Assembly (NCBI RefSeq): GCF_000375585.1
Contig: NZ_AQWP01000001.1
Span: 310,001 to 374,000 of the forward strand
DNA: 64,000 nucleotides
Direction of reading: 5' to 3'
From: Sinorhizobium meliloti 4H41
Lineage (GTDB): Bacteria > Pseudomonadota > Alphaproteobacteria > Rhizobiales > Rhizobiaceae
Below the pieces are notes generated by a model. The model searched no databases and was not told where the DNA came from. It worked only from the letters and a program-made list of their open reading frames with translations. Below are positions 38,835 through 58,217 of the stretch, piece after piece. Position 1 is the first letter of the stretch. Each line of letters begins with the position of its first letter. The position numbers and the translations under genes were made by a program.

Positions 38835-38911
38835 GCACCCGTAGCTCAGCTGGATAGAGCACCAGACTACGAATCTGGGGGTCAGGAGTTCGAATCTCTT
38901 CGGGTGCGCCA
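38835..38911 (+). tRNA. tRNA-Arg(ACG)
   Basis: 77 nt. Acceptor arms GCACCCG (38835-38841) and CGGGTGC pair perfectly, the D-loop follows TAGCTCAGCTGGATAGAGC, the anticodon stem CCAGA/TCTGG holds ACG in CTACGAA, the T-arm contains GTTCGAATC, and CCA is encoded at 38909-38911. The ACG wobble adenosine would be edited to inosine to read CGU/CGC/CGA. Confidence 0.97.
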
Positions 38912-41629: not shown

Positions 41630-41893
41630 ATGGCAACCAAAACAGCCAAGATATTTGCCAGCGGCCGCAGCCAGGCCGTCAGGCTCCCTGCAGAGTTCCG
41701 CTTCGAGGGCAGTGAGGTGTTCGTTCGTCGTGATCCGAAGACCGGTGATGTCATTCTGTCACGCAAGCCGGATTCATGGGACGGTCTTTTTGAACTCTAT
41801 GGCAAGGATCAGGTCGGGGACGACTTCCTGGGGCCGGCCGACCGCAAGCAGCCTTCGCAGGATAGAGATCCGTTCGAGGGCTGGAAGGAATGA
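41630..41893 (+). CDS. vapB: VapB-family antitoxin (AbrB/MazE-like)
   Basis: 87 aa. The N-terminal swapped-hairpin DNA-binding domain is [28 protein letters not shown] (about 3-30), typical of VagC/VapB antitoxins, with a C-terminal tail (about 45-87, [29 protein letters not shown]) that would wrap the toxin. GGAGG lies 7 nt upstream of the ATG. The stop overlaps the vapC start as ATGA, so the two are translated together. It should neutralise VapC and repress the operon. Confidence 0.93.
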
Positions 41894-42306
41894 GCCTGTG
41901 GATGCTCGATACCAACATTGCCAGTCATGTCATCAAGGGTGACCGCCCCGAGATCCTCGATCGGTTGGTTTCGCTTCCCATCTCGGACATTGTCGTATCA
42001 TCCGTCACCGAGGGGGAGTTGCTCTACGGTCTCGCCAAGCGAGGCGATCCCAGGACGCTATCTGAACGGGTCAGGCAATTCCTTCTTCGTGTAGACGTGT
42101 TGCCCTGGGATCGCGCTGCCGCCCGAAGCTATGGCGACCTGCGCGCTGCCTGTGAAGCCAAGGGCGCGGCTCTCGCGCCCCTCGACATGATGATTGCTGC
42201 CCATGCGATCGCCTTCGAAGCGGTCCTTGTGACCCGCGACAGAGCTTTTACCCGGGTTGCGGAGTCCCTGAAGACGGACGACTGGACGGACCAAAAACTG
42301 AAATGA
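41890..42306 (+). CDS. vapC: VapC-family PIN-domain ribonuclease toxin
   Basis: 138 aa PIN domain. Acidic active-site residues: Asp in [11 protein letters not shown], Glu in [12 protein letters not shown], Asp in [13 protein letters not shown] and Asp in [12 protein letters not shown], the full quartet. VapC toxins cleave tRNA or rRNA to stop growth. The start overlaps the end of vapB (ATGA) and its stop overlaps the start of the next gene in the same way, so the unit has three coupled genes. All catalytic residues are intact, so it is likely active. Confidence 0.93.
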
Positions 42307-44157: not shown

Positions 44158-44738
44158 GAATGAACCTTGCATTGCCGCGGCGCATGCGGGTGACGCAGGC
44201 GGACTGAAGCCTGCCTCGTAAAAATTTTCCGAATCATCTCACACCTTCGAGGGCAAGCGGCTTTTGGGGATGCTCACTCCCGCGGGAAGCGCGTCCCGCA
44301 TCGCCATATCCATGACGGCAATCGCCCTCTGAGCGCCACTGCCAGGCAGGACCGACGGCCTCACGAGCGGAAACCGGCGTTCCGGCGGCAACGCCGGGCA
44401 CGCTCCATATGTCCGCCTATGACCCAGGCCCGTGGAACGCCGCTCGATGTCTTGCGGATCACGAAACCTTCAGGAGGAAGCGGTTACTCCGTCATTTTCT
44501 AGAACGATTCCAAGGTTGTACCGGCGCACGAAGACGGCTCGTGACTGCGCGCCTGTTCTTCCTTAGGTTGAATGAAGGTTCACTGATTTGCGCTTCGGCG
44601 GAGCCGGCAAAGGCGCCGAGTTCTGGCGACGGTGACGAACTATCCCGCAATCAAACCCCATAAAATGTTCTGGTTATTTGCATATAAGCGGCGATTCCCG
44701 CCATTCCCGTTCGAAATCGGTCAGGGGAAGGCGACTGC
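44158..44738. other. Long intergenic region before the DUF11 cluster
   Basis: 581 bases. A short open frame at 44409-44663 has no recognisable content and no convincing ribosome site. The last 90 bases are AT-richer (TAAAATGTTCTGG, TTGCATATAAGCGG) and probably carry the promoter of the surface-protein cluster. No repeat or RNA gene was recognised. Confidence 0.5.
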
Positions 44739-47519
44739 ATGCGAGCAAATTCTAGAGTCTTGGAAATGGGCGACCGGCGCGCGAACCGGTGGGGCAGGAT
44801 ATTATCGACGCATCTTTTGGTTGCGGCCGCAGGTCTGCTGGCGATGGCGCCGTCGGCATCCGCCGCGCCGCCTGCGGCCGGTACGGTCATCGGCAATCAG
44901 GCGGTTGCGACTTATCAGTCGGCCGGACAGACCTTCTCGGTCACCTCGAACCGTGTCGAGACGACGATCAAAACGATCGCCGGAGTCCAGATCGAGAACG
45001 ATACGAGCAAGGACGTCATTGCCGGCGGCAATGCGTTCTTCCCGCATACCGTCACCAACGTCGGTAATGCCGCCGACAGATACGATCTGACGACCTCCGA
45101 TCTCGGGTCCGGTCTTTCCGTGGCCGGCATCTATGCCGACGACGACTGTGACGGCGTCCCGAACACGCTGACGGCGATCACCCGGACGGGGTCGCTTAAC
45201 CCGGGCGAAAGCGCCTGCGTGGTCATCGAGGTCAATGTCGCGGCGGGGGCGACCGGCAGTCCCACGCTCAAGATCACCGCCGCCAGCACGCTCGAAACGG
45301 CTGGCAATTTCGTTTCCGGCACGCCGAACCAGCCGAACGACTCCGATACGGACACCGTAAATGTCGTGGACGGCGCCGTTCTGCAGTTCACCAAGAACAT
45401 GAGCCTCGCCGCCGATACGGACGGCTCAGGCTCTCTCACACCCGGCGACAGGGTACGCGTTCGTTTCAACTACTCCAATACCGGCGGAGCCGATGCCACC
45501 GACGTGGAAATCTCGGACGTCCTGCCTGACGAGCTCGTCTACGTGGCGGGAACGGGCAAATGGTCGGACGGCGGCACGATGAACGATGCGGGTGGAGCGA
45601 CAGACCACACGAACGGCCAGGGCCACACGATATCCTATTCCTTTGACGAGGCCCTGGGCCTCAAGGCGGTTATCTCCGCCCTCCCGGTCGGCAAAACGAG
45701 CTACATCGAATTCGAAGCGAGCGTCGCGGACGGTGCGGCCGGCACGATTGCGAACACCGGTACGATCGTTTCGAAACAAACCGGTCAGCAAAGCTCGAAC
45801 GAGGCGCGGATTACGGTCGACAACGGCGACGCAATCGCCGTCACGCTGGCCGATCGTTCGGCAACCGACCCGGCCTATGCCGGCCGCTCGACAAGCGACC
45901 TCCCGGACAACAATCTCGGCGGCAGCGTGATATCCGAAAACGACGGGGACGGGGAGGCAAACGACACCGTCGCCTATGTGACGGGCTATCTGCCCTCGAG
46001 CACACCGGTGCCCTTCGAAGTGATCATCACGAACCATTCGAATACGGCGCAGCGTTTCAACCTTTCCGCCGCGCCGGGCAATTATCCCTCCGGGACGACC
46101 TTCACTTTCGTCGCGGACGGTGCGCCGATCCTGGATACGAACGGTGACGGCCAGCCGGACATACAGGTGGCTGCGAACACTGTGTCGAAAGTCTCCGTGC
46201 GCGCAAACCTTCCTTCCGGCTCCGCCCGGTCGGCGGACGCGGAGGCATGGGAGGCCACGGTGACGGCCACCGCGATCGCCAACCCGGCCGTGTCGAACCG
46301 GACAAGGCTGCAGATCAAGTCCGCCGTCGGCGGCGGCACCGTCGATCTGCAGAACGGCGGCGATAAGGCAATCGGAGCCGCCGTTGACAATGGGGGCGAG
46401 CCCTGGACGACCGTCGAAACAGACCCGGGGGAGGCTGCAGAATTCACCCTCGTCGTGGTCAACAAGCGTTCGGTACCCGACAGCTTCAACCTGTCCTTCA
46501 GCGAAACGAACTTCGCACCCGGCGCTATGCCCGCCGGGTGGCAGGTCGTGTTCACAAACGGCAGCGAAACGGTGACCAATACCGGTGTGATCGGTCCCGG
46601 CGCCTCGGCGACGTTCACGGCGCGGGTCACGCCTCCGGCGTCTGCTCCGCCCAGTTCACTCGGCGAAACGAATATCTACTTCCGTGCCGCTTCGACGAGC
46701 AGCCCTTCGGTTGTCGATACGAAACTGGACCGGGTCACGGTCAGGCAGCGGGTCGATCTCGCGATCAGCACCGACCAGATCGCACAGGCGGCGCCGGGCG
46801 GCGTGGTGGTGATCACCCACGTGCTGGAGAACCGCGGTAACGTGTCAATCAAAAACGGCGCGATCGGCTATGATCCGGCATTTCCGAGTTTCGCCGAGTC
46901 CCTTTGGCACGACATCAACGGCAACGGAGTATGGGATTCGAGCGATAAGCTCGTAAACAGCCTGGCCGATATCGTCGGTGAGGGGAGTCTCACTCCGGGA
47001 GATACCGCGCTTCTGTTCTCGCGGGTCCAGGTGCCTTCCACCGGGGCGAGCGGACTTTCCGAGAGCGCGAAGATCGTCGTCGGAACCAATCTTACCGGGC
47101 CTGGCGGCGCATCGGTAACCGATCAGAACACGGGCAACAACGCGGTCACTGAAACCGTCACCGTTGTGTCCGGCAATGTCGCCGTCGCCAAGGTTCAGGC
47201 GCTCGATGCCGAATGCAACGGCGAGGCCGACGTCGACTTCAGCCCACACCCGCAGGCTGCCTCTCCCGGCGAATGCATCGTCTACCGGGTCACGGCAGTC
47301 AATGTGGGGACCGCAAACGCCGATGGATTGAGGATCGACGACGCGGTTCCCGCATACACCACCTATGTCGGCTCGTCGGCGGCGGCCGCAGGCGGTTCCG
47401 AGGCGTCCATATCGCAGCAGCCGGGCGACGGCGCGACCGGCGCCATTCAATCGAAGCACGGCACATTAAGCCCCGGCCAGGAAGCGACGCTCACGTTCCG
47501 AGTCCGGATCGATCAATAG
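44739..47519 (+). CDS. Exported DUF11-repeat protein, surface-associated (cluster gene 1)
   Basis: 926 aa. Long signal peptide (about 1-42, cleavage near SASA/APP). Residues about 43-90 form a module shared with the next gene (APPAAGTVIGNQAVATY), then several DUF11/conserved-repeat beta-sandwich units (for example LTPGDRVRVRFNYSNTGGAD and GVVVITHVLENRGNVSIKNG). Four Asp-rich loops (DDDCDGVPN, DTDGSGSLTPGD, DTNGDGQPD, DINGNGVWDSSD) look like calcium-binding sites. It ends in a DUF11-like strand TLTFRVRIDQ. No barrel, LPXTG or membrane anchor is present, so it is secreted or held by another protein. It is 54 bp upstream of the barrel gene on the same strand. A start at 44766 is an alternative. 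Confidence 0.82.
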   Translation: MRANSRVLEMGDRRANRWGRILSTHLLVAAAGLLAMAPSASAAPPAAGTVIGNQAVATYQSAGQTFSVTSNRVETTIKTIAGVQIENDTSKDVIAGGNAFFPHTVTNVGNAADRYDLTTSDLGSGLSVAGIYADDDCDGVPNTLTAITRTGSLNPGESACVVIEVNVAAGATGSPTLKITAASTLETAGNFVSGTPNQPNDSDTDTVNVVDGAVLQFTKNMSLAADTDGSGSLTPGDRVRVRFNYSNTGGADATDVEISDVLPDELVYVAGTGKWSDGGTMNDAGGATDHTNGQGHTISYSFDEALGLKAVISALPVGKTSYIEFEASVADGAAGTIANTGTIVSKQTGQQSSNEARITVDNGDAIAVTLADRSATDPAYAGRSTSDLPDNNLGGSVISENDGDGEANDTVAYVTGYLPSSTPVPFEVIITNHSNTAQRFNLSAAPGNYPSGTTFTFVADGAPILDTNGDGQPDIQVAANTVSKVSVRANLPSGSARSADAEAWEATVTATAIANPAVSNRTRLQIKSAVGGGTVDLQNGGDKAIGAAVDNGGEPWTTVETDPGEAAEFTLVVVNKRSVPDSFNLSFSETNFAPGAMPAGWQVVFTNGSETVTNTGVIGPGASATFTARVTPPASAPPSSLGETNIYFRAASTSSPSVVDTKLDRVTVRQRVDLAISTDQIAQAAPGGVVVITHVLENRGNVSIKNGAIGYDPAFPSFAESLWHDINGNGVWDSSDKLVNSLADIVGEGSLTPGDTALLFSRVQVPSTGASGLSESAKIVVGTNLTGPGGASVTDQNTGNNAVTETVTVVSGNVAVAKVQALDAECNGEADVDFSPHPQAASPGECIVYRVTAVNVGTANADGLRIDDAVPAYTTYVGSSAAAAGGSEASISQQPGDGATGAIQSKHGTLSPGQEATLTFRVRIDQ

Positions 47520-47573
47520 CTTCGCCGAAGATCGAGCGGGCGGGTCCCGTCCCGTCCGCTCGAAGGTCGCTGC

Positions 47574-50500
47574 ATGAGGATAATCGGAAAGACAATGCCG
47601 GTAATGTATCGGGCACTTGGCAGATTTATCGTCGTCCTGGCGGCGCTTGCCTCGATGTTCCCGGCTGCCGCTATCTCCGCCCCTCCGCCCGCCGGGGCCA
47701 GGATCGAGGCGCGGGCGACCGTTACGTATTTCAACGCCAAGCTGGGCATTCAGGAGTCCGTATCGACCAATATCGTGGTCACCAACGTCAAAGAGGTGAA
47801 GAGCATCGACACGGTCTACGATCAGACCGTCTATCTGGCGCCCGGTTCGACCGGTCAGTTCGCTTTCTACGTTCGCAACGTCGGAAACGCGATGGCCCGC
47901 CCGTCGGCCGTTACCGAACAGCTTTCCGGCGACGATGCCGACTTCTCCGACCTCGTCGCCATCATAGACCAGAACCGCAACGGCGCCGCCGACCCGGGCG
48001 AATGGGAACTCACGCCCGACATGGCGATCGAGCTCGCAGCCGGCACCGAGCTGCCCGTGATCGTGCAGTTCGAAACGCCGGCTGCCGGGAAGGAGGGCGA
48101 CAGGGCAGGCATGCGGCTGAGCGCCAGAGACGGCGATGCTGCCGGTGCGGCCAACGGCGTGGTGGTGATTTCCTCCGCCGGCCTCGTTCTCGAAAAATCG
48201 GCCAACCGGGACGAAGTTCCCGCGGGCGGCCCGCTTCGCTACAGCCTGCGTCTGCGAAACAACGGCGTCACTGCCGCCCCCGGCTACTCGCAGATCGAGG
48301 GAAACGCCGTGCGGGTGGACGGGTCGCCGGTGTCGGGCGTTCTGGTGCGCGATCCGCGGCCGCTCAACACCCGCGTCACCGCGGTGTCGGCGACGGGCGG
48401 CTTCAACGAACTCTATCATATCGAAGGGCAGCCGCAGCACAGCTATGTGACGGCGCCTCCCGCGGATATGTCGAGGGTGGATGCGGTCGCCTTCTTCAGG
48501 GCGGGCGATTATCCGGCCGGTTTCTCCGCCAATCTCGAATTCGAGGTCGCCGTCGCCGGGAACATGCAGTCGGGCGCGATCCTCAATACGGCATCCACCT
48601 GGCAGAAGGTCGGTGGCGACTGGGTCGAAATAAGCTCCAACCTCGTCAAGACACCCGTCAAGGGCGGCAGCGCCGCGCTGACCTACACGGCACCCGACGG
48701 AACCCCGATCACCAGCGCGGCGCTCGACAGCAACGTGCGGCTGAAGCTGGATGCGGCTGCGTGCAACACCACCGACGGTGTGGACCGAATTCCCATCAGA
48801 ATTGCCACCGATCCGGAGGCCGATCTCGAGACGGTGCTGGCGACGGAAACGGGGGCGAATACCGGCCTTTTCACCACCACGCTCATCCCCCTCCAGCGGG
48901 TGCTGCCGGCGGTGGAGGGCGACAACATCCTGTCCGGGGACCGGAGCACGAAAGCTTCCGCAAGCGCAACGTGCGGCGGGCAAAACGTATCCGCCGTACT
49001 CACCGTCAATCCCGGCGGCTTCGTCTTTCACTCCGCCAGCAACGCCGCGGTCTCCGGCGCAATCGTCATAGTCCGCAACGCCTCCGGCGCCGAGATAGAG
49101 CGTACCGTGTCCGATGTGAGCGGCTTCTACGTCGTAAGCGCTGCCGAGACTGCAGGCACGTACCGGATCGAGGTGCTGCCGCCCGAGGGACTGTCCTTCC
49201 CCTCGACGCGAACGACCTTTCCCGCCTGGGGCCGCAACCTGGACCCCGATGCCTCCTACGGGCGGCTGTTCAAGACGACAGGCCCCTTCACCGGTGTCGA
49301 TATTCCGGTCGATCCCGACGGTGCCGCGGCGCTGCGGCTGGAACAGTCGGTCGACCAGGCCATCGCAGCGCCCGGCGACATTCTGGTCTATACGCTCACC
49401 CTGACCAATACCGCCGGCATAGGGCTTTTGGACGCCTTCATCCATACGGGCTTGCCGAAGGGCATCACCTACCTGGAAGGCACGCTCCGTCTCGACGGCA
49501 AACCCGTCAAGGTCTCGGGATTTCCGGGCCGGAACCTCGTCTTCGACGTCGGATTCGTCGGACCCAACGGTACGGTGACCCTGACCTACATGGCGGTCGT
49601 CGACCCGACTGCCAGCGGTCAGCTCGCCAATATCGCCCATGCGTCGGGTCATCTGGCCGGCAGGGGGGCCGTGCGTTCCAACGATGCGCGCGCCGTGGTG
49701 CGCATCGAAAGGGACGGCGGCGTCTTCAGCGATGAGGGCGTCGTCCTCGGCAAGGTCTACATCGATTTCAACGAGAACGGGCGGCAGGACCGTTATCTGC
49801 CGACCGGGCGGGATGCGGCGAAAGGCGCTCTCGAGCGTGCGGAGCCCGGAATTCCCGGCGTCAAGCTTCAATTCTCGACCGGGGCGAGCGTGGTGACCGA
49901 CATCGAAGGGAAATATTCGATGCCGGGATTGCCCCCCGGGGCGCATGTCGTCGCCATTTCGACGGCTACGCTGCCGGCGACCGTCGAATCCCGCTCGACG
50001 TCGGCGCGCGACGCGCTGAGCCCCCGCAGCCGCTATCTGCGCATGCTGCCGGGGCAGGTGGCGAGCGAATATTTCGCGGTCACGCCCCGAAAGGGTGTCA
50101 GCCGCGACGACGTTCTCGCCGAACTCGAATCCCGCAGGCGGGCCTATGCCGAAAATGTGGACCCGGACCGGAATGGTCCGGTTCCGGAACGGCTGGAACT
50201 CGGGGGCGAGGAGTGGGTCGACTACTTCGGGCGCCTGTCGTCGTCCCACGGCGAAGCGACGAAGAACACCGAAACGCAGATCGTCGCGCGGGACCGGCCC
50301 GAGAACGGAAAGCCCGCGGCCGCGGACACCGACACCGGCGCGCCGAAAGCGCTGGCTCTCGAACGCACGCGAGATCTGGAGGCCGAGATCAAGGGGCTGT
50401 CCGCCGAGCTCGGCTTTCTCGACCTGGAATCCGACAGCCTGCTCAACAGCGACATCGTTTCCATCCGCGTGAAGGGGCCGGCCGACGGCAAGCTCGGGCT

Positions 50501-53486
50501 CAACCTCAACGGCGAGCCGGTTTCCGAAGGGCAGGTCGGTCAGCGTGTCGTCTATTCCGCAGGAGGCGTTCAGGCGGCGGAATATGTCGCGGTCCGTCTC
50601 GAAGGCGGCCGCAACACGCTCGAGGCCACGTTCTCGGACCCTTTCGGCAATGTCCGCGGGCGCAGGGAAATCACGGTCCTTGCGGCGGGCCGTCCGGCGA
50701 GGATCGAACTCGTCGCGCCGCCCGCCGCCTTCGCCGATCCGGCCTCGCCCATCCCGGTCCTGATCCGATTCGTCGATGCCGAGGGCGTGGCCACCGAGGC
50801 CTCCATGGACGTGACGCTCGAGGCGTCCGGTCAGGGCCGGTGGGGAGCCGACGACATCCGCAGCACCGAGCCGGGGGTTCAGATCTTCGTCGACAAGGGG
50901 GAGGCACTCGTCGACTACTATCCGCCGGCGCTCTCCGGCACGCACAGGATCGCCGTGCGCAACGGCCTCGGCCGTTTCGAGACCGAGGTCAAGCTTCTGG
51001 CCGACGACAGCAGGAGGATCATCGCCGGTGTCGTCGAGGGCGTGGTCCGGCTGCCCGGCAGCGTCGAGCCCGCCACGGGACTGGAGGGCTTCGACGCCTC
51101 CACGACGGGTGTCGACGGCGAGCTCTATCTGCAGGGCAAGATCAAGGGCGATGCTCTGCTGACGCTGCGTTACGACGGTGATCTCGACACCGAGGAGCGG
51201 CTGTTCCGCGACATCGATCCGGAGCGCTACTATCCCGTTTACGGCGATGCGTCGGAGCGCGGCTATGACGCCCAGTCCCGGTCCCGGCTCTACGTGAAAG
51301 TCGAGAAGGGTCTCAACTACGTTCTCTACGGCGATATAGACATTTCTCCGCAGGCGAGCGAGTTTCAGCTCGGCTCCCATAGCAGGCTGCTGACCGGTGC
51401 CCGGGCCCATGTCGAAGCCGGTCCCGTCACCATCGATCTCTTCGCCGGGCGAACGGACCAGAGCCAGGTCATACGCGAGTTCCGTGCCGAGGGGTTGTCG
51501 GGCCCTTACGATCTGGACCTGGCGGGTTATGCGGAAGGCTCGGAACAGGTCGAGGTGATCACGCGCGACCGGCGCCAGCCCTCGCTCGTCGTCGATACCG
51601 TGCTCCTCAAGCGCTTCGACGACTATCGGCTGGACTATTTCGGCAACGCGATCATCTTCAATGCGCCGGTCCCGGCTTTCGACGGCGACGGCAACCCGAA
51701 CTTCATCCGCGTCACCTACGAGCTCGAGACGGACGGCGACGCCTACTGGGTCTATGCCGGAGAGGCGCGCTACCGGGTGAACGACCGCATCGCCGTCGGT
51801 TACCGCGAAATACGCTCCGAAGCGGAGCGCAGCTTCGACGATCGCCGCACCGTGCGCGCGGGATATGTGTCGGCCGATCTCGGCGCCTATGGAAAAGCCG
51901 AGGTCGAAGTAGCGCAGACCGTCGACAAGGATGGCGAGACCGGCCTTGCTTCGCGTCTCGGCTACGAGGTCAAGAGAGAGCGTGTCACGCTCCGCGTCGG
52001 CGCCGCCCGGGCCGACGAGGATTTCGCCGAGGGCTCGTCTCTCTCCCCCGGCAGTGCCGAGGTGAACGTGTCGGCCGACTGGAACGTCTCGCCCCGCCTC
52101 AAGATCACGACTTCGGCGCTCTACGACCAGCAGATGCCTTCGGGCAACGAACGCTTCGGCGTCGAAGTGCTGCCGAGCTGGATGATCAATCCCGAGCTTA
52201 CCGTCTCGGCCGGCATGCGCTTCGTCCGCCTCGAACCGGGCGACGGCGAGGAGCCGCGGTCCGTGCCCTCGGGCGTTCTCGGCGCCGAGTGGAGCCCGGC
52301 CGCCCTGCCCAGCCTGGCCCTCAAAGGCGAGGTCGAGGCAGACCTCACTGACTTCTCGCATCTGCGTGCTCTCCTGGAGGCATCCTATCAGGTGAACGAG
52401 CGCGTGAAGGTCTATACGGGCGTCGATTGGGCTACGAGCGGATCGGAATTTCTCGATTTCTCCAGCGCCGACGGTGCGACCGGAACGATGAAGACCGGCG
52501 TCGAATACCGTTTCAGCGACGACGTGAAGACTTTCGGGGAGATGCGTGGCGGTTCGCAGACCGGCTTCGCGGGCGGTGTCGCCGGCGACTGGGAGATCGG
52601 CCATTGGGATCTGCCGGGCTGGATCGCTGGCGAGGACACGCGCGTCTATGCGAGCATCGAGCGCTTCCAGCCCTACGATCTCGACGAGCTGATCGGGCTG
52701 CCTTTCGGCGTGGACGACGACGAGGACACGCCGCAGACCACGCTTGCGGCCGGCTACCTCGCAACGCTCCGCGACGGAAACGCGCGGCTTGGCCTCGGTG
52801 CCGAACTGTCCTTCAAGGACGGTGGATATACGGCCTACGGCCAGCAATATTGGAGCCAGCGGGCCGGCGAGTGGACCTGGGCCATCGAAAACCGCCTGGC
52901 CACGGCGGACACCGACACGCAACAGCGCCTGCGCGATCACCTGCGCATCGGCGCCGCGCTCAGGCCCGACGAGGAGAGCATCGACGCCCTTTTCCTCGGC
53001 GGCATCAGGGTAGAGCGCGACTTCGCCACCGATATCGATGCCGACACGGCCTACTGGTCGGCCGCCGGTTCCTGGGCGCTCGGCCCGGATATGCGCATCA
53101 CCGCCAAGCAGGCCGGGCAGTACCAGGCGAAGTCGGTCGGCGACGTGACCGGTGACACTTTCGTCCTTCTCGCGCAAACGGGCATCGAGCGGGACATCGA
53201 ACTGGAGGATGAACTGCGCCTGCGGCTGGGCTTCAACGGCACGCTCTTCTACGATCCGCTCACCGGCCAGAGCCATAGCGGCTTCGGGGCGGAGATCGGC
53301 TTCGTGCCGACGAAGAACGTGCTCCTCGCCGCAGGCTATAACCTTACCAAGGTCAATGCCTCGAGCGTCTCCGAAATTTATACGGCCGGCCCCTATGTCC
53401 GGCTGTCGATCAAGCTCGACGATTCGCTCTGGGGCTTTTTCGACCGTGCGGGTTTGACGGTGCCGGTCGAAGGGGAGAGCAGGTGA
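47574..53486 (+). CDS. Giant outer-membrane protein: DUF11/Cna-B ectodomain with C-terminal beta-barrel (cluster gene 2)
   Basis: 1970 aa. Signal peptide about 1-36; the APPPAGARIEARATVTYF module shared with gene 1; beta-sandwich repeats (about 60-470); a Cna-B-like unit (about 478-560); a DUF11 unit starting LEQSVDQAIAAPGDILVYTL (about 585-700); an SdrD-B-like unit GKVYIDFNENGRQD ... VTDIEGKYSMPGLPPGAH (about 720-820); an Arg/Glu-rich linker (about 830-950); further sandwich domains; then from about 1165 a long run of amphipathic strands (VDGELYLQGKIKGDALLTLRY, LLTGARAHVEAGPVTIDLFAG, TYGQQYWSQ-like) ending in YVRLSIKLDD...LTVPVEGESR. The last 800 residues look like a large outer-membrane beta-barrel. 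Function unknown: display scaffold or adhesin is the best inference. Confidence 0.85.
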   Translation: MRIIGKTMPVMYRALGRFIVVLAALASMFPAAAISAPPPAGARIEARATVTYFNAKLGIQESVSTNIVVTNVKEVKSIDTVYDQTVYLAPGSTGQFAFYVRNVGNAMARPSAVTEQLSGDDADFSDLVAIIDQNRNGAADPGEWELTPDMAIELAAGTELPVIVQFETPAAGKEGDRAGMRLSARDGDAAGAANGVVVISSAGLVLEKSANRDEVPAGGPLRYSLRLRNNGVTAAPGYSQIEGNAVRVDGSPVSGVLVRDPRPLNTRVTAVSATGGFNELYHIEGQPQHSYVTAPPADMSRVDAVAFFRAGDYPAGFSANLEFEVAVAGNMQSGAILNTASTWQKVGGDWVEISSNLVKTPVKGGSAALTYTAPDGTPITSAALDSNVRLKLDAAACNTTDGVDRIPIRIATDPEADLETVLATETGANTGLFTTTLIPLQRVLPAVEGDNILSGDRSTKASASATCGGQNVSAVLTVNPGGFVFHSASNAAVSGAIVIVRNASGAEIERTVSDVSGFYVVSAAETAGTYRIEVLPPEGLSFPSTRTTFPAWGRNLDPDASYGRLFKTTGPFTGVDIPVDPDGAAALRLEQSVDQAIAAPGDILVYTLTLTNTAGIGLLDAFIHTGLPKGITYLEGTLRLDGKPVKVSGFPGRNLVFDVGFVGPNGTVTLTYMAVVDPTASGQLANIAHASGHLAGRGAVRSNDARAVVRIERDGGVFSDEGVVLGKVYIDFNENGRQDRYLPTGRDAAKGALERAEPGIPGVKLQFSTGASVVTDIEGKYSMPGLPPGAHVVAISTATLPATVESRSTSARDALSPRSRYLRMLPGQVASEYFAVTPRKGVSRDDVLAELESRRRAYAENVDPDRNGPVPERLELGGEEWVDYFGRLSSSHGEATKNTETQIVARDRPENGKPAAADTDTGAPKALALERTRDLEAEIKGLSAELGFLDLESDSLLNSDIVSIRVKGPADGKLGLNLNGEPVSEGQVGQRVVYSAGGVQAAEYVAVRLEGGRNTLEATFSDPFGNVRGRREITVLAAGRPARIELVAPPAAFADPASPIPVLIRFVDAEGVATEASMDVTLEASGQGRWGADDIRSTEPGVQIFVDKGEALVDYYPPALSGTHRIAVRNGLGRFETEVKLLADDSRRIIAGVVEGVVRLPGSVEPATGLEGFDASTTGVDGELYLQGKIKGDALLTLRYDGDLDTEERLFRDIDPERYYPVYGDASERGYDAQSRSRLYVKVEKGLNYVLYGDIDISPQASEFQLGSHSRLLTGARAHVEAGPVTIDLFAGRTDQSQVIREFRAEGLSGPYDLDLAGYAEGSEQVEVITRDRRQPSLVVDTVLLKRFDDYRLDYFGNAIIFNAPVPAFDGDGNPNFIRVTYELETDGDAYWVYAGEARYRVNDRIAVGYREIRSEAERSFDDRRTVRAGYVSADLGAYGKAEVEVAQTVDKDGETGLASRLGYEVKRERVTLRVGAARADEDFAEGSSLSPGSAEVNVSADWNVSPRLKITTSALYDQQMPSGNERFGVEVLPSWMINPELTVSAGMRFVRLEPGDGEEPRSVPSGVLGAEWSPAALPSLALKGEVEADLTDFSHLRALLEASYQVNERVKVYTGVDWATSGSEFLDFSSADGATGTMKTGVEYRFSDDVKTFGEMRGGSQTGFAGGVAGDWEIGHWDLPGWIAGEDTRVYASIERFQPYDLDELIGLPFGVDDDEDTPQTTLAAGYLATLRDGNARLGLGAELSFKDGGYTAYGQQYWSQRAGEWTWAIENRLATADTDTQQRLRDHLRIGAALRPDEESIDALFLGGIRVERDFATDIDADTAYWSAAGSWALGPDMRITAKQAGQYQAKSVGDVTGDTFVLLAQTGIERDIELEDELRLRLGFNGTLFYDPLTGQSHSGFGAEIGFVPTKNVLLAAGYNLTKVNASSVSEIYTAGPYVRLSIKLDDSLWGFFDRAGLTVPVEGESR

Positions 53487-53794
53487 TGCACCGGGCACTC
53501 GGAAACGTCTTCCGGCCAGGAGCCTCCGCCCTCCCGCTGCAGACGGATACCATACGGGGCAACGATGTGGGCGATTGCCGCCTCGGCGCAAGCTTCTTGC
53601 GCTCGGTGGACCGGCGACGCCGGATTTGAGATCAGGATCGCGAACCAGATGAACCATGCGGAAGGAAAGCAATTTTTGATGATCTCTCTGCCCCGTTTTG
53701 CCAAAAGCGCAACCGTCTCCCTCGTCAATGACGGCCACCGGGTATATTTCGCCTGCTTCCGTGAGACGTTGCCGGGCAGCGGGCCGGTCCTGAT
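53487..53794. other. Intergenic region within the surface cluster
   Basis: 308 bases between the barrel gene and the glycine-rich gene. A 77-codon open frame at 53565-53798 lacks a signal, domain or good ribosome site and is not called. No terminator hairpin with a T-run was found, so read-through from the barrel gene is possible. Confidence 0.45.
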
Positions 53795-56700
53795 ATGATC
53801 GCGGGGTCCGCAGCCGTCTCCCGGTTGGCGCGCTTTGCCGCAAGGGGGGCCCGTGCGCCGGGCTCCTGGTTCGGGGGCACGGCGCGGGTGGTCTCTTCAT
53901 GTGCGCTCGCGGCACTGGCCGTCATCGACCTTCTGGCGCTCGTGACGTCGGCGCAGGCAGAGACCTTCGGTCCCGGATCGTACACCTACACGGTCCCGCC
54001 CGGCGTGACCCGCGTGAAGGTACGGGTGGTCGGCGGTGTCGGCGGCGCCGGTAACGAGTTTATCGATACCGGCTACAGCAGAGGCGGCGCCGCCCATATC
54101 ATCGATGCGATCGTGAACGTTGTCTTCGGCGACACGATCAGCGGTACTGTTGCGCGCGGTGGCGAAGGCGGCTTTCTGCCGGGCGATTATGCGGAAGGAG
54201 GCACCGGCGTGGGCCGCGGCGGCGATGGCGGCGGAAGGGCGGTCATAACCGGGGGCACCTTTGTTGGCGGCGGCGGCGGCGGCACCTCGCTCGCGCTAAA
54301 TGGGACAAGCATACTGAAGGCGGCCGGCGGCGGCGGCGGCGGCGGCGGCGCTGGAGACTCGAACTTTATCTACCGCTCTCCCGAACACGGTGGAAACGCC
54401 AGCGGGTTCGTATCGAGATCCAACTGCAACACCTCAGGCAATGGCGCGTCAGCGGCTAAAGTTAACAGCGGCGGCAGCGGCGGCGGCGGCGGAGGTGGGT
54501 ATGCTGGAGGCGTAGCCGGCTCGGGATATGCGTACAATGCCTCCGACAACGGAACTCCCTCGACGGGCGGAAGCTCATGCAGAAGCAATCAAAGCAGCCT
54601 GTTCGCGACGGGTCCTTCCACCTCGTCGACCGCGACCAATTCCTCTAATGGCCGCAACGGTGCCGACGGCTATGTGCAAATCCTCGAGCTGAAACCGTCC
54701 CTTTCCAAGAGTTTCGCGGCAGGTTCGGTGAAGAAAGGCGAAAACGTTGCGTTGACCCTCACGATCACCAATCCGGCAGGTGCGGCCGCGCAAAACGGGC
54801 TCTCTTTCACCGATACGCTGCCGAGCGGTCTCGTAGTGGCCGGCGTGCCGGCGGCATTCCAGTGCGGGGGCGAGGTATCGAGAAGCGCCGACGGCAGCAC
54901 GATCGGCCTCAGCGGTGGCAGTCTGGCAGCGGGGCCGAGCAGCTGCACGGTGACGTTGCAGGTCACGGCGGCGGCGTCGCAGGGCTCGGCATCGTGCCCC
55001 AATCCGAGCACCACCAACGGTCCGGGCAATATTTCCGGGCTTTCGTCCAACCTGGCGAACGGCGTAACGGATCAGTGTGTCAGCATCCGGCTGACACCCT
55101 CCCTGACCAAAGCGTTCGGCGCCGCTTCGATCAAGAAAGGCGAGGCGACGACGCTGACCTTCACGCTGTCCAACCCGAGCGGTTCGGGCGCGCAGACCGG
55201 GCTCTCCTTCACCGACACGCTGCCGAATGGATTGACGCTCGCCAGTGCACCGGCTGCCTCGCAATGCGGCGGCACGGTCACCGGCAGCGCCGACGGCAAA
55301 ACGGTCACCTTGAGCGGTGGCAGTCTGGGAGCGGGACCGAGCAGCTGCACGGTGACGGCGCAGGTCACGACGGCGACATCGCAGGACCCGGCCTCCTGCG
55401 CCAATCCGAGCACGACCAATGGTGCGGCCAATATCACCGCGATCTCGGCCAATCTCGCAAACACGGTGACCGACCAGTGCCTCGGTGTCACGCCCGTCAC
55501 GCCGGTCGTGACGATCGCGAAGATCTCCGATGGCGGTACGGGGACCTTCACCTTCAAAGGCACGGCGGCGAACCACAACGGCTTTCCGACCGACGGCAGC
55601 TACAGCCTTGCGACGTCGGCGCCGGGGACCGCGGTGACCGGAAATCCGGTCACGCTCGCCGCGGCGGATGTGCCGACCGCGATCGAGGAGTCCCTGCCGC
55701 CCGGGTGGCGGCTGGGCTCGGCGCGCTGCGAGGATCAGAACTGGCAGCAAACCGGCAATCCCCGGGGAGAAGTGATAGGCTCGGTTGCCGACGGCAGAAC
55801 GCTGGTGATCCCGGCGGCGAACGCCAGGGCCGGCGCCAAGCTCGTCTGCAGCTTCACCAACCGCTTTGTCGGCTTCACTCTCTCCGGACAGGTGATCCGC
55901 GACGACGGCACCGGCGGCGGCACCGCCCACAACGCCGCACTGGACGGCGGCGAGGCAGGCCTTGGCGGCGTTCCTGTCCGCTTCACCGATTGCGGGGCCA
56001 CCACCTATGCCAGCACGGTTACGGCCGGCGACGGCACGTTCTCGCTGCCGCTTGCCGGGCCTGCCGGCGGGGCCAGCGTCTGCGTCGTGCGCGATCCGGT
56101 GACCGAGCTTGCCGGGGTCAGCGGCGGAGCCGGCAATACCGGCGGCACGGTCGCGACGCCCGGATACGATGCCGTCGCCTTCACTTACAATACGACGACC
56201 GATTATCATTCCGTCCGTTTCGGCGTCATCGAGAGGCCGAGACTTGCTGATGACGGCGCGGCGACGGTGGCGCCGGGGGGCACGGTGTTTCTGGCGCATC
56301 GCTACACGGCCACGACCGCGGCGACGGCCAGCTTCTCCATCGCCAATGCCATCGGCCGGCCCGCTCTGTCCGCCTTCACCTACACGCTCTTTCGGGATGA
56401 AGACTGCTCGGGAACGCTCGATAGCGGCGAAACCGCGGCGGCCGGAGCGGTCAGTGTCGCTGCGGGCGAGGAGGTGTGCCTGATCGTGCGGGTGCAGGCG
56501 TCGGCCGGTGCGGCCGGGGGCGCCGCCCTCGAATATGACGTGACCGCCGACACGGCGCTTTCGGGCACGCTGGCGTCGCTGGCCCCGCTCACCGATCACG
56601 ACGTGCTGACGGTGCCGGCAGCCGGCACGATCAGCCTGGTCAAGCGGGTGCGCAACGTGACGTCGGGCAGCGGCTTCGCGGTCTCCTCGGCCGGCGCGCC

Positions 56701-56971
56701 CGGCGACATCCTCGAATACCGGATCGCCTTCACCAACCCGTCGGCAGAGGCGGTGTCCGAGCTCTCGATCCAGGACGAGACGCCGGCCTATACCAGGCTC
56801 TCCGGTCCCCCCGCTGCCGCCGTCGCACCCTCGGGCATGAGCTGCACCCTGACCGTTCCGGCCGCCGGAGGTGTGAGCGGCTATGCCGGCCCCCTGCGCT
56901 GGGACTGCACCGGAACCATGAGCCCCGGCGCCACGGGCAACGTCGCATTCCAGGTCAGGATCGCGAACTAA
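53795..56971 (+). CDS. Exported glycine-rich DUF11 protein (cluster gene 3)
   Basis: 1058 aa. Unusually long signal peptide (about 1-55, cleavage after AQA). A glycine-rich domain follows (about 57-300) starting VPPGVTRVKVRVVGGVGGAG and containing an eight-Gly run, comparable to poly-Gly surface domains. Then two near-identical DUF11-like repeats of 134 aa (about 299-432 and 433-566: PSLSKSF..GSVKKGE and PSLTKAFG..SIKKGE), a SpaA/prealbumin-like stretch (VVTIAKISDGGTGTFTFKG, IEESLPPGWRL, CSFTNRFVGF), and a last DUF11 unit ending GNVAFQVRIAN. Free cysteines in each repeat could form disulfides. No anchor is seen. It may be a secreted partner of the barrel protein. Confidence 0.82.
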   Translation: MIAGSAAVSRLARFAARGARAPGSWFGGTARVVSSCALAALAVIDLLALVTSAQAETFGPGSYTYTVPPGVTRVKVRVVGGVGGAGNEFIDTGYSRGGAAHIIDAIVNVVFGDTISGTVARGGEGGFLPGDYAEGGTGVGRGGDGGGRAVITGGTFVGGGGGGTSLALNGTSILKAAGGGGGGGGAGDSNFIYRSPEHGGNASGFVSRSNCNTSGNGASAAKVNSGGSGGGGGGGYAGGVAGSGYAYNASDNGTPSTGGSSCRSNQSSLFATGPSTSSTATNSSNGRNGADGYVQILELKPSLSKSFAAGSVKKGENVALTLTITNPAGAAAQNGLSFTDTLPSGLVVAGVPAAFQCGGEVSRSADGSTIGLSGGSLAAGPSSCTVTLQVTAAASQGSASCPNPSTTNGPGNISGLSSNLANGVTDQCVSIRLTPSLTKAFGAASIKKGEATTLTFTLSNPSGSGAQTGLSFTDTLPNGLTLASAPAASQCGGTVTGSADGKTVTLSGGSLGAGPSSCTVTAQVTTATSQDPASCANPSTTNGAANITAISANLANTVTDQCLGVTPVTPVVTIAKISDGGTGTFTFKGTAANHNGFPTDGSYSLATSAPGTAVTGNPVTLAAADVPTAIEESLPPGWRLGSARCEDQNWQQTGNPRGEVIGSVADGRTLVIPAANARAGAKLVCSFTNRFVGFTLSGQVIRDDGTGGGTAHNAALDGGEAGLGGVPVRFTDCGATTYASTVTAGDGTFSLPLAGPAGGASVCVVRDPVTELAGVSGGAGNTGGTVATPGYDAVAFTYNTTTDYHSVRFGVIERPRLADDGAATVAPGGTVFLAHRYTATTAATASFSIANAIGRPALSAFTYTLFRDEDCSGTLDSGETAAAGAVSVAAGEEVCLIVRVQASAGAAGGAALEYDVTADTALSGTLASLAPLTDHDVLTVPAAGTISLVKRVRNVTSGSGFAVSSAGAPGDILEYRIAFTNPSAEAVSELSIQDETPAYTRLSGPPAAAVAPSGMSCTLTVPAAGGVSGYAGPLRWDCTGTMSPGATGNVAFQVRIAN
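54326..54349 (+). repeat. (GGC)8 trinucleotide repeat inside the glycine-rich gene
   Basis: Eight uninterrupted GGC codons giving an eight-glycine run. A second shorter run lies around 54268-54282. Length changes would stay in frame and alter only the poly-Gly tract. Confidence 0.9.
54689..55492 (+). repeat. Tandem duplication of a 402-bp DUF11 module
   Basis: Unit 1 is 54689-55090, unit 2 is 55091-55492, both within the glycine-rich gene. DNA identity is high in places, e.g. AGCGGTGGCAGTCTGG and CCGAGCAGCTGCACGGTGAC occur in both, so the duplication is recent or kept alike by recombination. Confidence 0.85.
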
Positions 56972-57082
56972 GGGCTGTTGAGCGGTTTTGTCGGCACGCA
57001 TGGCGATGCGTTTGAATTCCTTGAGTACCGACGGTGCGCCACTGCATGTGTCCCTGATCGTAGCCGATCAAAGGACAAAAAC

Positions 57083-57102
57083 ATGCAGCAGCTCAAAGTG
57101 CT
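57083..57102. repeat. Short dispersed repeat, copy of the 58748 type
   Basis: ATGCAGCAGCTCAAAGTGCT; matches the element at 58748-58772 with small changes. The pattern is characteristic of rhizobial RIME-like intergenic repeats (from general knowledge, not compared here). Confidence 0.55.
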
Positions 57103-57128
57103 TTTCGGAGGACTGCGATCTCTCCTCA

Positions 57129-57247
57129 CCTCATCCCTGTGCTCGTCACAGGGATGAGAGCAGCGCCGCGTCTGCGGCGCGGGAAGCGTTCTTTCAGCCC
57201 AAGGACTTGGTCTGGGCTGGATTCCTGTGACGAGCACAGGAATGAGG
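57129..57247. repeat. Nested palindromic element (MITE/RIME-like), copy A
   Basis: 119 bp with 27-bp terminal inverted arms (57129-57155 and 57221-57247) that match with three differences. Each arm is itself a hairpin, CCTGTG-CTCGT-CACAGG. The centre has CGCCGCG-TCT-GCGGCGCG and AGCCCAAGGACTTGGTCTGG. Copy B follows 128 bp later in the same orientation. Confidence 0.8.
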
Positions 57248-57375
57248 AACTGGGATGTGCGGCTACTACATCGAAGCGAAGCGGGACGCTGTATACGGGC
57301 GTGACCCGGGACCCGTCGTGTCGCCTCACTATCTTCACGGTTTATGAAGCGCGCCGAGGGACCGCACCCTCTCCA

Positions 57376-57492
57376 CCTCATCCCCTGTGCTCGTCACAGG
57401 GATCCAGCAGCGCCGCGTCTGCGGCGCGGGAGAGTTTCTCCAGCCCAAGGACTTGGTCTGCCTGGATTCCTGTAACGAGCACAGGAATGAGG
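57376..57492. repeat. Nested palindromic element (MITE/RIME-like), copy B
   Basis: 117 bp, same arms and centre as copy A with a few changes (one extra C in the left arm, GTAACG for GTGACG in the right arm). Direct orientation relative to copy A. Confidence 0.8.
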
Positions 57493-57673
57493 AAATCAAA
57501 CAAGTGGCGGCGCGAGGGGCAGTCTTATTTGCTCATAAGCGGGCATTCGTGGCCTAAGCGGGTGTGAAATTCACGCTGGCCGGGAGCGATCGGCGCCCCG
57601 GCCGTGCGGCAAATCGTGCGTCGTATTGCCATTCTGCAGCCGGCAGATGGACGGCGTTTCGGACGGAGGCACT

Positions 57674-58171
57674 GTGAGGCACTGGATCATATCATCGCTC
57701 TTGGCGGCCGGGCTTGCCTTGGCCTCGTGGAACGTGGCCGCGCAGGAACAGGCGGCGCCGTTGTCGGTCAGCCTTGCAGCGCAAAGCGTCGAGACCGGGG
57801 AGGACGGCAAGGAGACCTTCTCGTCGGCCGATGCGGCTGCTCCGGGTGCTCTCCTGCAATATACGGGACGTTACAGCAACGTGTCGAAAGAACCGCTTTC
57901 CGGCTTGATCATCAATGGGCCGATCCCGGCCAACACCTCGTTCATAGATGCGGGGCTGGCGGTTTCGCAGAAGGCGGCCTTCGAGGTGCTGATCGAGGGT
58001 GAATCCTGGCAGAGTATCCCGGCCTATAAGACGGTCGTTCTGGCAGACGGGACGAAGAGCCGCGTCGTGGCCGAGGCATCGGATTACCGCCAGATCCGCT
58101 GGCGGCTTGCGGAAGCTCTCGCGCCGGGCGCAACCCTGGTCACCGTCTACCGCGTGCAGGTCGGGCAGTAG
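57674..58171 (+). CDS. Small exported DUF11-like protein (cluster gene 4)
   Basis: 165 aa from a GTG at 57674, with GGAGG 4 nt upstream. This start gives a standard signal peptide (MRHWIISSLLAAGLALASWN, cleavage near VAAQE). The mature part is one beta-sandwich domain: PGALLQYTGRYSNVSKEPLSG, IPANTSFIDAG, then ASDYRQIRWRLAEALAPGATL and the final strand VYRVQVGQ. This is the minimal, single-domain version of the repeats in the larger neighbours. It could be a subunit, cap or periplasmic chaperone-like partner (inference). Starts at 57626 or 57647 would place non-signal sequence in front. Confidence 0.78.
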   Translation: MRHWIISSLLAAGLALASWNVAAQEQAAPLSVSLAAQSVETGEDGKETFSSADAAAPGALLQYTGRYSNVSKEPLSGLIINGPIPANTSFIDAGLAVSQKAAFEVLIEGESWQSIPAYKTVVLADGTKSRVVAEASDYRQIRWRLAEALAPGATLVTVYRVQVGQ

Positions 58172-58217
58172 CAAAGAAGGCTGAGCGGCATCGGGCCTGC
58201 CTGTGCCGCTGTCCCGA

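Follow-up and report, generated by a model that had tools for sequence, protein, structure and literature searches.

Split DUF11 domains at the chain ends of a conserved gene cassette suggest a self-linking surface fibre on a predicted giant barrel

The analysed window, 64,000 nt of Sinorhizobium meliloti 4H41 (NZ_AQWP01000001.1, positions 310,001 to 374,000, forward strand), contains four genes whose products we propose to form a surface fibre joined by split CLIPPER (DUF11) domains. On sequence comparison, the DUF11 domain at the C-terminus of gene products 1, 3, and 4 lacks its last hairpin, and gene products 1 and 2 start with a matching hairpin directly after the signal peptide; by the same comparison, the N-terminal module common to genes 1 and 2 is the half that this C-terminal domain lacks. 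The residues of a potential isopeptide bond appear to be divided in the same way, with Lys and Asp in the C-terminal half (genes 1 and 3) and Asn in the N-terminal half. We give the fibre, as read from sequences and structural models, a probability of roughly 0.6. The features concerned are as follows (lengths in amino acids, aa).

44739 to 47519, + strand: gene 1 (926 aa), proposed shaft, with an N-terminal donor hairpin and a C-terminal acceptor domain
44868 to 44984, + strand: putative donor hairpin of gene 1, residues 44-82 (AGTVIGNQAVATY...VTSNRVETTI), internal-DUF11 profile positions 95-147, score 3.1
47181 to 47516, + strand: putative acceptor domain of gene 1, residues 815-926, profile positions 7-96 of 155, running up to the stop codon; Pfam DUF11 positions 10-84 of 114
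47574 to 53486, + strand: gene 2 (1970 aa), proposed outer-membrane anchor, with a donor hairpin, immunoglobulin (Ig)-like/DUF11/SdrD_B domains, and a barrel
47682 to 47801, + strand: putative donor hairpin of gene 2, residues 37-76 (AGARIEARATVTYF...VSTNIVVTNV), assigned by sequence and comparison with relatives
51114 to 53417, + strand: predicted large beta-barrel region of gene 2, residues 1181-1948, with the YYPVYGD core (AlphaFold2, Foldseek)
53795 to 56971, + strand: gene 3 (1058 aa), proposed tip, with a glycine-rich N-terminal part, a DUF7933/SpaA_4 stalk, and a C-terminal acceptor
56633 to 56968, + strand: putative acceptor domain of gene 3, residues 947-1058, with Lys950 and Asp994
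57674 to 58171, + strand: gene 4 (165 aa, GTG start), signal peptide and a single truncated DUF11-like domain without the Lys/Asp pair

The initial annotation of this locus had described four same-strand genes of 926, 1970, 1058, and 165 aa, and the open reading frames (ORFs) were found in these places, with the codon-position GC content supporting their frames over long antisense ORFs. They are separated by 54 bp (genes 1 and 2), 308 bp (genes 2 and 3), and 702 bp (genes 3 and 4). The signal peptide ascribed to each product was recognised by eye as Sec-type, without a lipobox Cys, in all four. All four products had also been described as built from DUF11-like repeats. This was right for genes 1, 2, and 3, where Pfam DUF11 scored above the gathering score, together with SdrD_B in gene 2 and DUF7933 and SpaA_4 in gene 3; it did not extend to gene 4, which by sequence is one truncated domain rather than repeats, with no convincing Pfam match and a profile-profile match to DUF11 at an E value of 1.3e-10. 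The NCBIfam model B_ant_repeat stayed below its cut-off. The glycine domain reported for gene 3 can be read from the sequence as a glycine-rich N-terminal part, and the N-terminal module common to genes 1 and 2 turned out to be real and the key feature. What the annotation had overlooked were the complementary halves at the chain ends, which, on the sequence comparisons below, provide a concrete assembly mechanism.

Inspection of the C-terminal ends of genes 1, 3, and 4 revealed a shared last beta strand, FxVxI. Internal DUF11 domains continue past this strand with a hairpin (GxxTNxAxV...) that is absent from the chain ends, and where the C-terminal match was complete, the 114 positions of Pfam DUF11 were matched only to 84-92. 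A profile of gene 1 C-termini recovered gene-3-type C-termini and vice versa. A 155-position profile was built from 142 internal DUF11 domains, each more than 60 aa from either chain end, and the C-terminal domains ended at a median profile position of 96 for gene 1 (94/94 matched), 95 for gene 3 (29/29), and 96 for gene 4 (73/73). In profile-profile comparison, the C-terminal domain stopped at column 93 and gene 4 at column 94 of the 152 columns of internal DUF11.

The N-termini were compared with the same profile. Those of genes 1 and 2 matched the remainder, from position 96 or 97 to 145 or 140, in 60 of 94 gene 1 proteins (shuffled, 74/470) and 53 of 78 gene 2 proteins (shuffled, 29/390). 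The same match was obtained for 5 of 29 gene 3 N-termini (shuffled, 10/145), for none of the 73 gene 4 N-termini (shuffled, 10/365), and for 30 of 516 random internal windows. In a join test, an N-terminus was appended, with no preselection, to the C-terminal domain of gene 1 from its own locus, and a gain of more than 5 bits was scored. The N-termini of gene 2 and of gene 1 each produced a gain in 68 of 74 loci, compared with 8/74 and 12/74 for shuffled sequences, 9/74 and 13/74 for other parts of gene 2, and 0/70 for the gene 4 N-terminus. An earlier version of the test gave 45/53 versus 5/265, a result that is biased because its donors had been preselected with the same profile; in that version one control piece, gene 2 residues 701-755, outscored the donors (61.5 bits), since it is a genuine DUF11 tail. 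In hhalign comparisons the gene 1 donor profile scored above 60/60 column shuffles.

The chemistry of the proposed joint is suggested by the CLIPPER crystal structure 9IFR, in which a bond joins Lys715 and Asn806 and Asp748 lies close by, all within one domain (PMC12617251). Among the internal DUF11 domains covering all three positions, 96 of 118 carry the complete triad. Direct alignment of the C-terminal domains showed, for gene 1, Lys in 105 and Asp in all of 107 and, for gene 3, both residues in all 32; the two gene 1 misses (L036 and L076) look out of register by eye, and the gene 1 domain has an insertion in its first loop. At the C-terminal chain ends of genes 1 and 3 the Asn strand is absent, so a triad within the single terminal domain is not found there. 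Close to the N-terminus, 88 of 94 gene 1 proteins and 66 of 78 gene 2 proteins have the [IVL]xNxA motif (18-19% in shuffles). In the window the residues are Lys818, Asp868, and Asn53 of gene 1 and Lys950 and Asp994 of gene 3. In gene 4 the Asp is missing from the triad position in 73 of 73 proteins.

An alignment-based scan of named genomes yielded 389 gene 2 relatives, and the locus counts given here cover the best 80 of these and up to 7 others. The best 80 were from Rhodobacterales, Neomegalonema, many Acinetobacter, Lysobacter, Burkholderiales, Acidobacteriota, Opitutia, and a Balneolales bin. Within the order, strong matches covering all or nearly all of gene 2 are few: 11 of 120 relatives matched gene 2 at an E value of ≤1e-10, with more than 800 bits in only four genomes (its own, G025, G109, and G087), and in an order-wide draw 3 of 397 genomes, its own among them, had a match at ≤1e-60. 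The locus is thus not a rhizobial speciality, and the system extends over several phyla. All 74 loci with more than 1.5 kb ahead of gene 2 have a gene-1-type ORF directly upstream on the same strand, and a gene-4-type ORF precedes gene 1 in 68 of 71 loci with enough room, the misses being L035, L036, and L075. The commonest order is gene 4, gene 1, gene 2; gene 4 instead follows gene 3 in the window and in G025, its nearest relative. The gene-3-type neighbour is less regular, with any phmmer match in 40 of 87 loci, several of them weak or to other DUF11 proteins. The co-occurrence of the four families proposed in the initial annotation was therefore found for genes 1 and 4 and less regularly for gene 3; the four genes are real members of a conserved cassette. 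Extra gene-1-type genes were seen beside the main copy in several Acinetobacter loci (L032, L071-L108), as was an OmpA-type gene immediately after gene 2. Three of these loci encode proteins of about 970 aa (L032 16543-19479, L077 17040-19940, and L106 17046-19955) with the acceptor end and another N-terminus (IQRSF.N..F...GW.TT); counted as gene 1 by best hit, they are probably alternative tips.

The gene 2 C-terminus, which the initial annotation had taken for a barrel and had named beforehand as a test, was modelled with AlphaFold2 as a single chain (residues 926-1970, 60 relatives). A large barrel was predicted, with a mean predicted local distance difference test score (pLDDT) of 84 and a predicted template modelling score (pTM) of 0.75. 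The model has 43 strands in residues 1181-1948, of which 32, from 1375 onward, are long, and many strands show alternating hydrophobicity; the region is predicted to be a large amphipathic beta-barrel-like structure of at least 32 strands. The best Foldseek matches in the PDB were the outer-membrane barrels SlpA, LptD, and Mtr, with SprA lower (E value of 1.3e-05, TM-scores of 0.16 and 0.10); TM-scores were low, 0.15-0.21 for the best matches and about 0.1-0.3 overall. The barrel matched no sequence family in Pfam or NCBIfam and no solved structure in a PDB sequence search, which returned nothing useful with gene 2 and, with the barrel profile, a single chance-level porin (E value of 0.082). 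The most conserved core (YYPVYGD, residues 1184-1400) recurs in a second gene of this genome, described below. Relatives of the OmpA-type gene located directly behind gene 2 of Acinetobacter haemolyticus occur in 23 of 87 loci, and in Lysobacter (L088 9854-17278) gene 2 has 2474 aa and carries an OmpA-like domain after the barrel; this neighbour and this domain suggest that the barrel C-terminus faces the periplasm. Neither of the outcomes that the initial annotation had named as refuting it, a C-terminus without a predicted barrel or rare co-occurrence of the genes, was obtained. With a predicted barrel and conserved neighbours, the barrel-anchored surface assembly of the initial annotation remains a fair reading, in which anchoring and export would be the inferred parts.

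A second barrel gene was observed in the same genome (contig C3, L003 68-9720). It encodes 1281 aa with 36% identity to gene 2 residues 1184-1426 and sits directly behind a giant tandem-DUF11 protein (open frame of 3488 aa); C-terminal-domain matches at this locus were weak (E value of 8.6e-05 or worse).

We suggest that these parts would assemble by donor-strand complementation, the N-terminal hairpin of one subunit completing the C-terminal domain of the next. Genes 1 and 2 would supply donors and genes 1, 3, and 4 acceptors. Gene 2, a donor only with the barrel at its far end, would serve as the anchor in the outer membrane and probably as the exit; gene 1, both donor and acceptor, would be the repeatable shaft; and gene 3, an acceptor only with a variable N-terminal part, would be the tip adhesin. 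Gene 4, an acceptor only and without the Lys and Asp, may bind donors reversibly as a cap, chaperone, or periplasmic guard. The subunit C-termini would be directed towards the cell. Where the full triad comes together, at joints of gene 1 with another gene 1 or with gene 3, a spontaneous, sortase-free Lys-Asn isopeptide bond would be expected between the chains, and the gene 2 joint of this strain would be non-covalent because its hairpin has Ala at the Asn position. Export through the barrel, the direction of growth, and the role of gene 4 are inferred. The fibre model agrees with a remark in PMC9210967 on fibrillar adhesins, some of which have stalks that extend as far as the C-terminus and might attach to other surface proteins. 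The further proposal that the cassette is a natural counterpart of SpyTag/SpyCatcher, with covalent fibres in several phyla that weld themselves head to tail without a sortase on a new family of giant barrels, goes beyond the fibre itself, and from the sequences and models we would put it at slightly under even odds.

Several results weigh against the fibre. Single donor matches were weak, and the gene 1 N-terminus of the window, scanned alone, reached 7.1 bits; the gene 2 N-terminus of the window scored with the profile in another register, not as a donor. The position filter was also passed by the random internal windows (30/516) and shuffled gene 1 N-termini (74/470) mentioned above. In hhalign, 4 of 60 shuffles beat the gene 2 donor profile and the pooled profile, making this test only partly clean. 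The donor Asn is absent from gene 2 in 12 of 78 proteins, including that of this strain (Ala46), and a 691-aa gene-1-type protein of Deinococcus radiodurans had no profile match at either end, its motif being visible by eye only. Barrel closure, the export role, and fibre formation itself are putative.

The cassette was also followed in Thermus and Deinococcus loci that were obtained after the profile had been built. Plasmid pTT27 of the laboratory model Thermus thermophilus HB8 (L169 5363-19719; TTH_RS10905 to TTH_RS10925) carries it, annotated as hypothetical or DUF11 proteins. Its gene 1 product (888 aa) matched the profile as donor at positions 99-142 and as acceptor at 3-95, and its gene 3 product (996 aa) as acceptor at 16-95. 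Gene 2 seems to be split into two genes there, an 897-aa protein with a donor match at 96-132 and a 1795-aa protein that was taken as the barrel half on weak gene 2 similarity (E value of 7.5e-05). The 164-aa gene-4-type protein matched only positions 11-66. Gene 1 of Deinococcus aquaticus matched as donor at 94-146 and as acceptor at 15-96. D. radiodurans R1 pMP1 (L171 4082-12291) has a reduced cassette comprising the gene-1-type protein noted above, a gene-2-type protein with a donor match at 97-141, and a 1086-aa protein with a barrel-like end.

Next to the fibre, a reading along the lines of type IX secretion was considered, in which the barrel would recognise the C-terminal domain as a signal for export or sorting; the domain would then be no polymerisation joint, and the N-terminal motif would be only a structural relic. 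It accounts for a shared domain that is strictly C-terminal behind variable N-terminal parts. In 39 complete proteins (741 pairs), a set chosen by the C-terminal domain and containing one contig twice and one gene-1-type protein, 617 of 741 pairs were similar over the C-terminal 110 aa versus 107 of 741 over residues 41-390. The same variation in front of a constant end makes gene 3 suited to the tip role in the fibre. Unlinked proteins with the domain also agree with a sorting signal: in each of ten hand-picked genomes the C-terminal domain of gene 1 was present, along with one or more further large ORFs (≥1293 aa) carrying it, and in three of the ten such ORFs were also on other contigs. The domain moreover tracks the barrel. 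In a class draw of 327 genomes it was found at an E value of ≤1e-12 in three (its own, G616, and G521), all of which fall among the seven with a gene-2-type barrel (≤1e-60); G680, one of the other four, has short gene-1-type proteins below the E threshold. A sorting signal would leave unexplained, however, why genes 1 and 2, and not genes 3 and 4, begin with the missing half of the domain, and why the Lys/Asp/Asn triad is split. We consider it unlikely as a replacement for the fibre, although the two roles are not mutually exclusive.

DUF11 arrays can be divided in either phase, and if the true unit were a hairpin with the following core, the chains would already be complete, no exchange would take place, and the proteins would be separate adhesins. 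Many DUF11 proteins are plain stalks, according to PMC9210967 and PMC12617251. Against this, the isopeptide bond of 9IFR ties a Lys near the start to an Asn near the end of a single domain, so the Asn hairpin belongs with the preceding core, and core plus Asn strand is the structural unit. Genes 3 and 4, furthermore, have the cut core but no N-terminal hairpin. We judge such a phase artefact a little less likely still than a sorting signal. Closure of gene 1 on itself, its own hairpin filling its own C-terminal domain to give a ring or clamp around or on the barrel, would agree with the presence of both halves on gene 1 and with distant alphaproteobacterial loci whose gene-1-type proteins have just 329-371 aa and both halves, but it is very improbable as gene 2 is a donor only and genes 3 and 4 are acceptors only, requiring partners in trans.

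Comparison with known systems places the proposed fibre among several partial likenesses, each drawn from the portions of the literature considered here. The CLIPPER protein of 9IFR (PF01345; Acinetobacter silvestris B9T28_05395, PMC12617251) shares the domain family, the fold, and the Lys-Asp-Asn triad. It was the best PDB match of the internal DUF11 domains (E value of 3.4e-05) and was among the Foldseek matches of gene 4 (probability of 1.00, E value of 0.023). The triad of 9IFR lies within one chain, whereas here it would be shared between two chain ends, and the words barrel and outer membrane are absent from the main text of that article. A fold search of gene 4 in the PDB and a viral library gave no match at an E value of ≤0.001, a PDB sequence search with gene 4 gave only an adaptor protein at 0.028, taken as chance, and PDB sequence searches with single DUF11 proteins gave nothing useful.

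Chaperone-usher pili, as described in the sources consulted, have Ig-like subunits without the last strand that are completed by the N-terminal part of a neighbour, an outer-membrane barrel, and a tip, shaft, and anchor, as the proposed fibre would. Unlike them, the present system would have a much larger barrel, a missing hairpin rather than a single strand, and possibly covalent joints, and a scan of genes 1-4 found no Pfam match to usher, pilin, or PapD-like chaperone at an E value of ≤0.1. The nearest precedent in the literature considered is the archaeal thread of Sulfolobus acidocaldarius, for which PMC9715654 describes donor-strand complementation and proposes isopeptide bonds between subunits, no sortase being known. 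According to the same article, it differs in that the bond runs from the N-terminal Asp24 to Asn57 two subunits away, Saci_0406 has no Pfam domain, and there is no outer membrane or barrel.

Systems such as SpyTag/SpyCatcher consist of a spontaneous-isopeptide domain in two pieces that rejoin covalently; as portrayed in the sources used, they and other split isopeptide domains are engineered and derive from Gram-positive adhesins, whereas the split proposed here would be natural and in a CnaA-like CLIPPER domain. Type IX secretion (the SprA/Sov translocon), so far as these sources cover it, shares a giant outer-membrane barrel and Ig-like C-terminal domains on its cargo. SprA/Por components and the C-terminal domain of the type IX secretion system had no Pfam or NCBIfam match in genes 1-4, no LPXTG-type sorting signal or membrane anchor of the kind found in sortase pili was seen at the ends of genes 1, 3, and 4, which are formed by the FxVxI strand, and gene 2 had no autotransporter (type V) or two-partner barrel Pfam match at an E value of ≤0.1. 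A link through DUF11 to the type XI secretion system (T11SS) was rejected; the relevant passages of the paper concern DUF1194, and DUF11 is mentioned once in them. No description of the cassette or of a split DUF11 domain was found among the listed titles and the passages considered in the open PMC literature.

The four genes are gained or lost as a single block, because in Sinorhizobium sp. C101 the flanks, 98% identical, are joined by 41 bp:

44328 to 58217, no strand: presence/absence block with all four genes, replaced by 41 bp in Sinorhizobium sp. C101

The same slot on pSymB of S. meliloti Ak57 (L033 9066-13719) holds gene 1 broken into three frames and, of gene 2, just residues 4-576; tblastn did not find gene 4 there and found gene 3 only as a likeness to the gene 1 end. 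Unrelated repetitive adhesin-like sequence was observed after the gene 2 fragment. Base composition gave no clear island, with a GC content of 0.62-0.67 across the locus. Scans for promoters (3 promoter-like sequences versus 1.6 expected from shuffles) and terminators (4 terminator-like versus 8.8) were uninformative, and Rfam returned nothing except a tRNA at 38835. Elsewhere in the window, at 41630-42306, two small genes with an overlapping stop have, by eye, the look of a VapB/VapC-type antitoxin-toxin pair.

The principle of donor-strand complementation is already known; what would be new, as judged from sequences and models alone, are the components and the split isopeptide joint. If the proposal is right, the cassette would represent a further class of outer-membrane-anchored fibre, with parts unmatched to the known pilus families tested and with a span of genera from Sinorhizobium and Acinetobacter to Thermus. 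It would give a widely distributed domain of unknown function a role at chain ends and would account for the retention on the cell of DUF11 proteins that have no sorting signal. The two halves would also offer protein engineers naturally evolved split isopeptide pairs.

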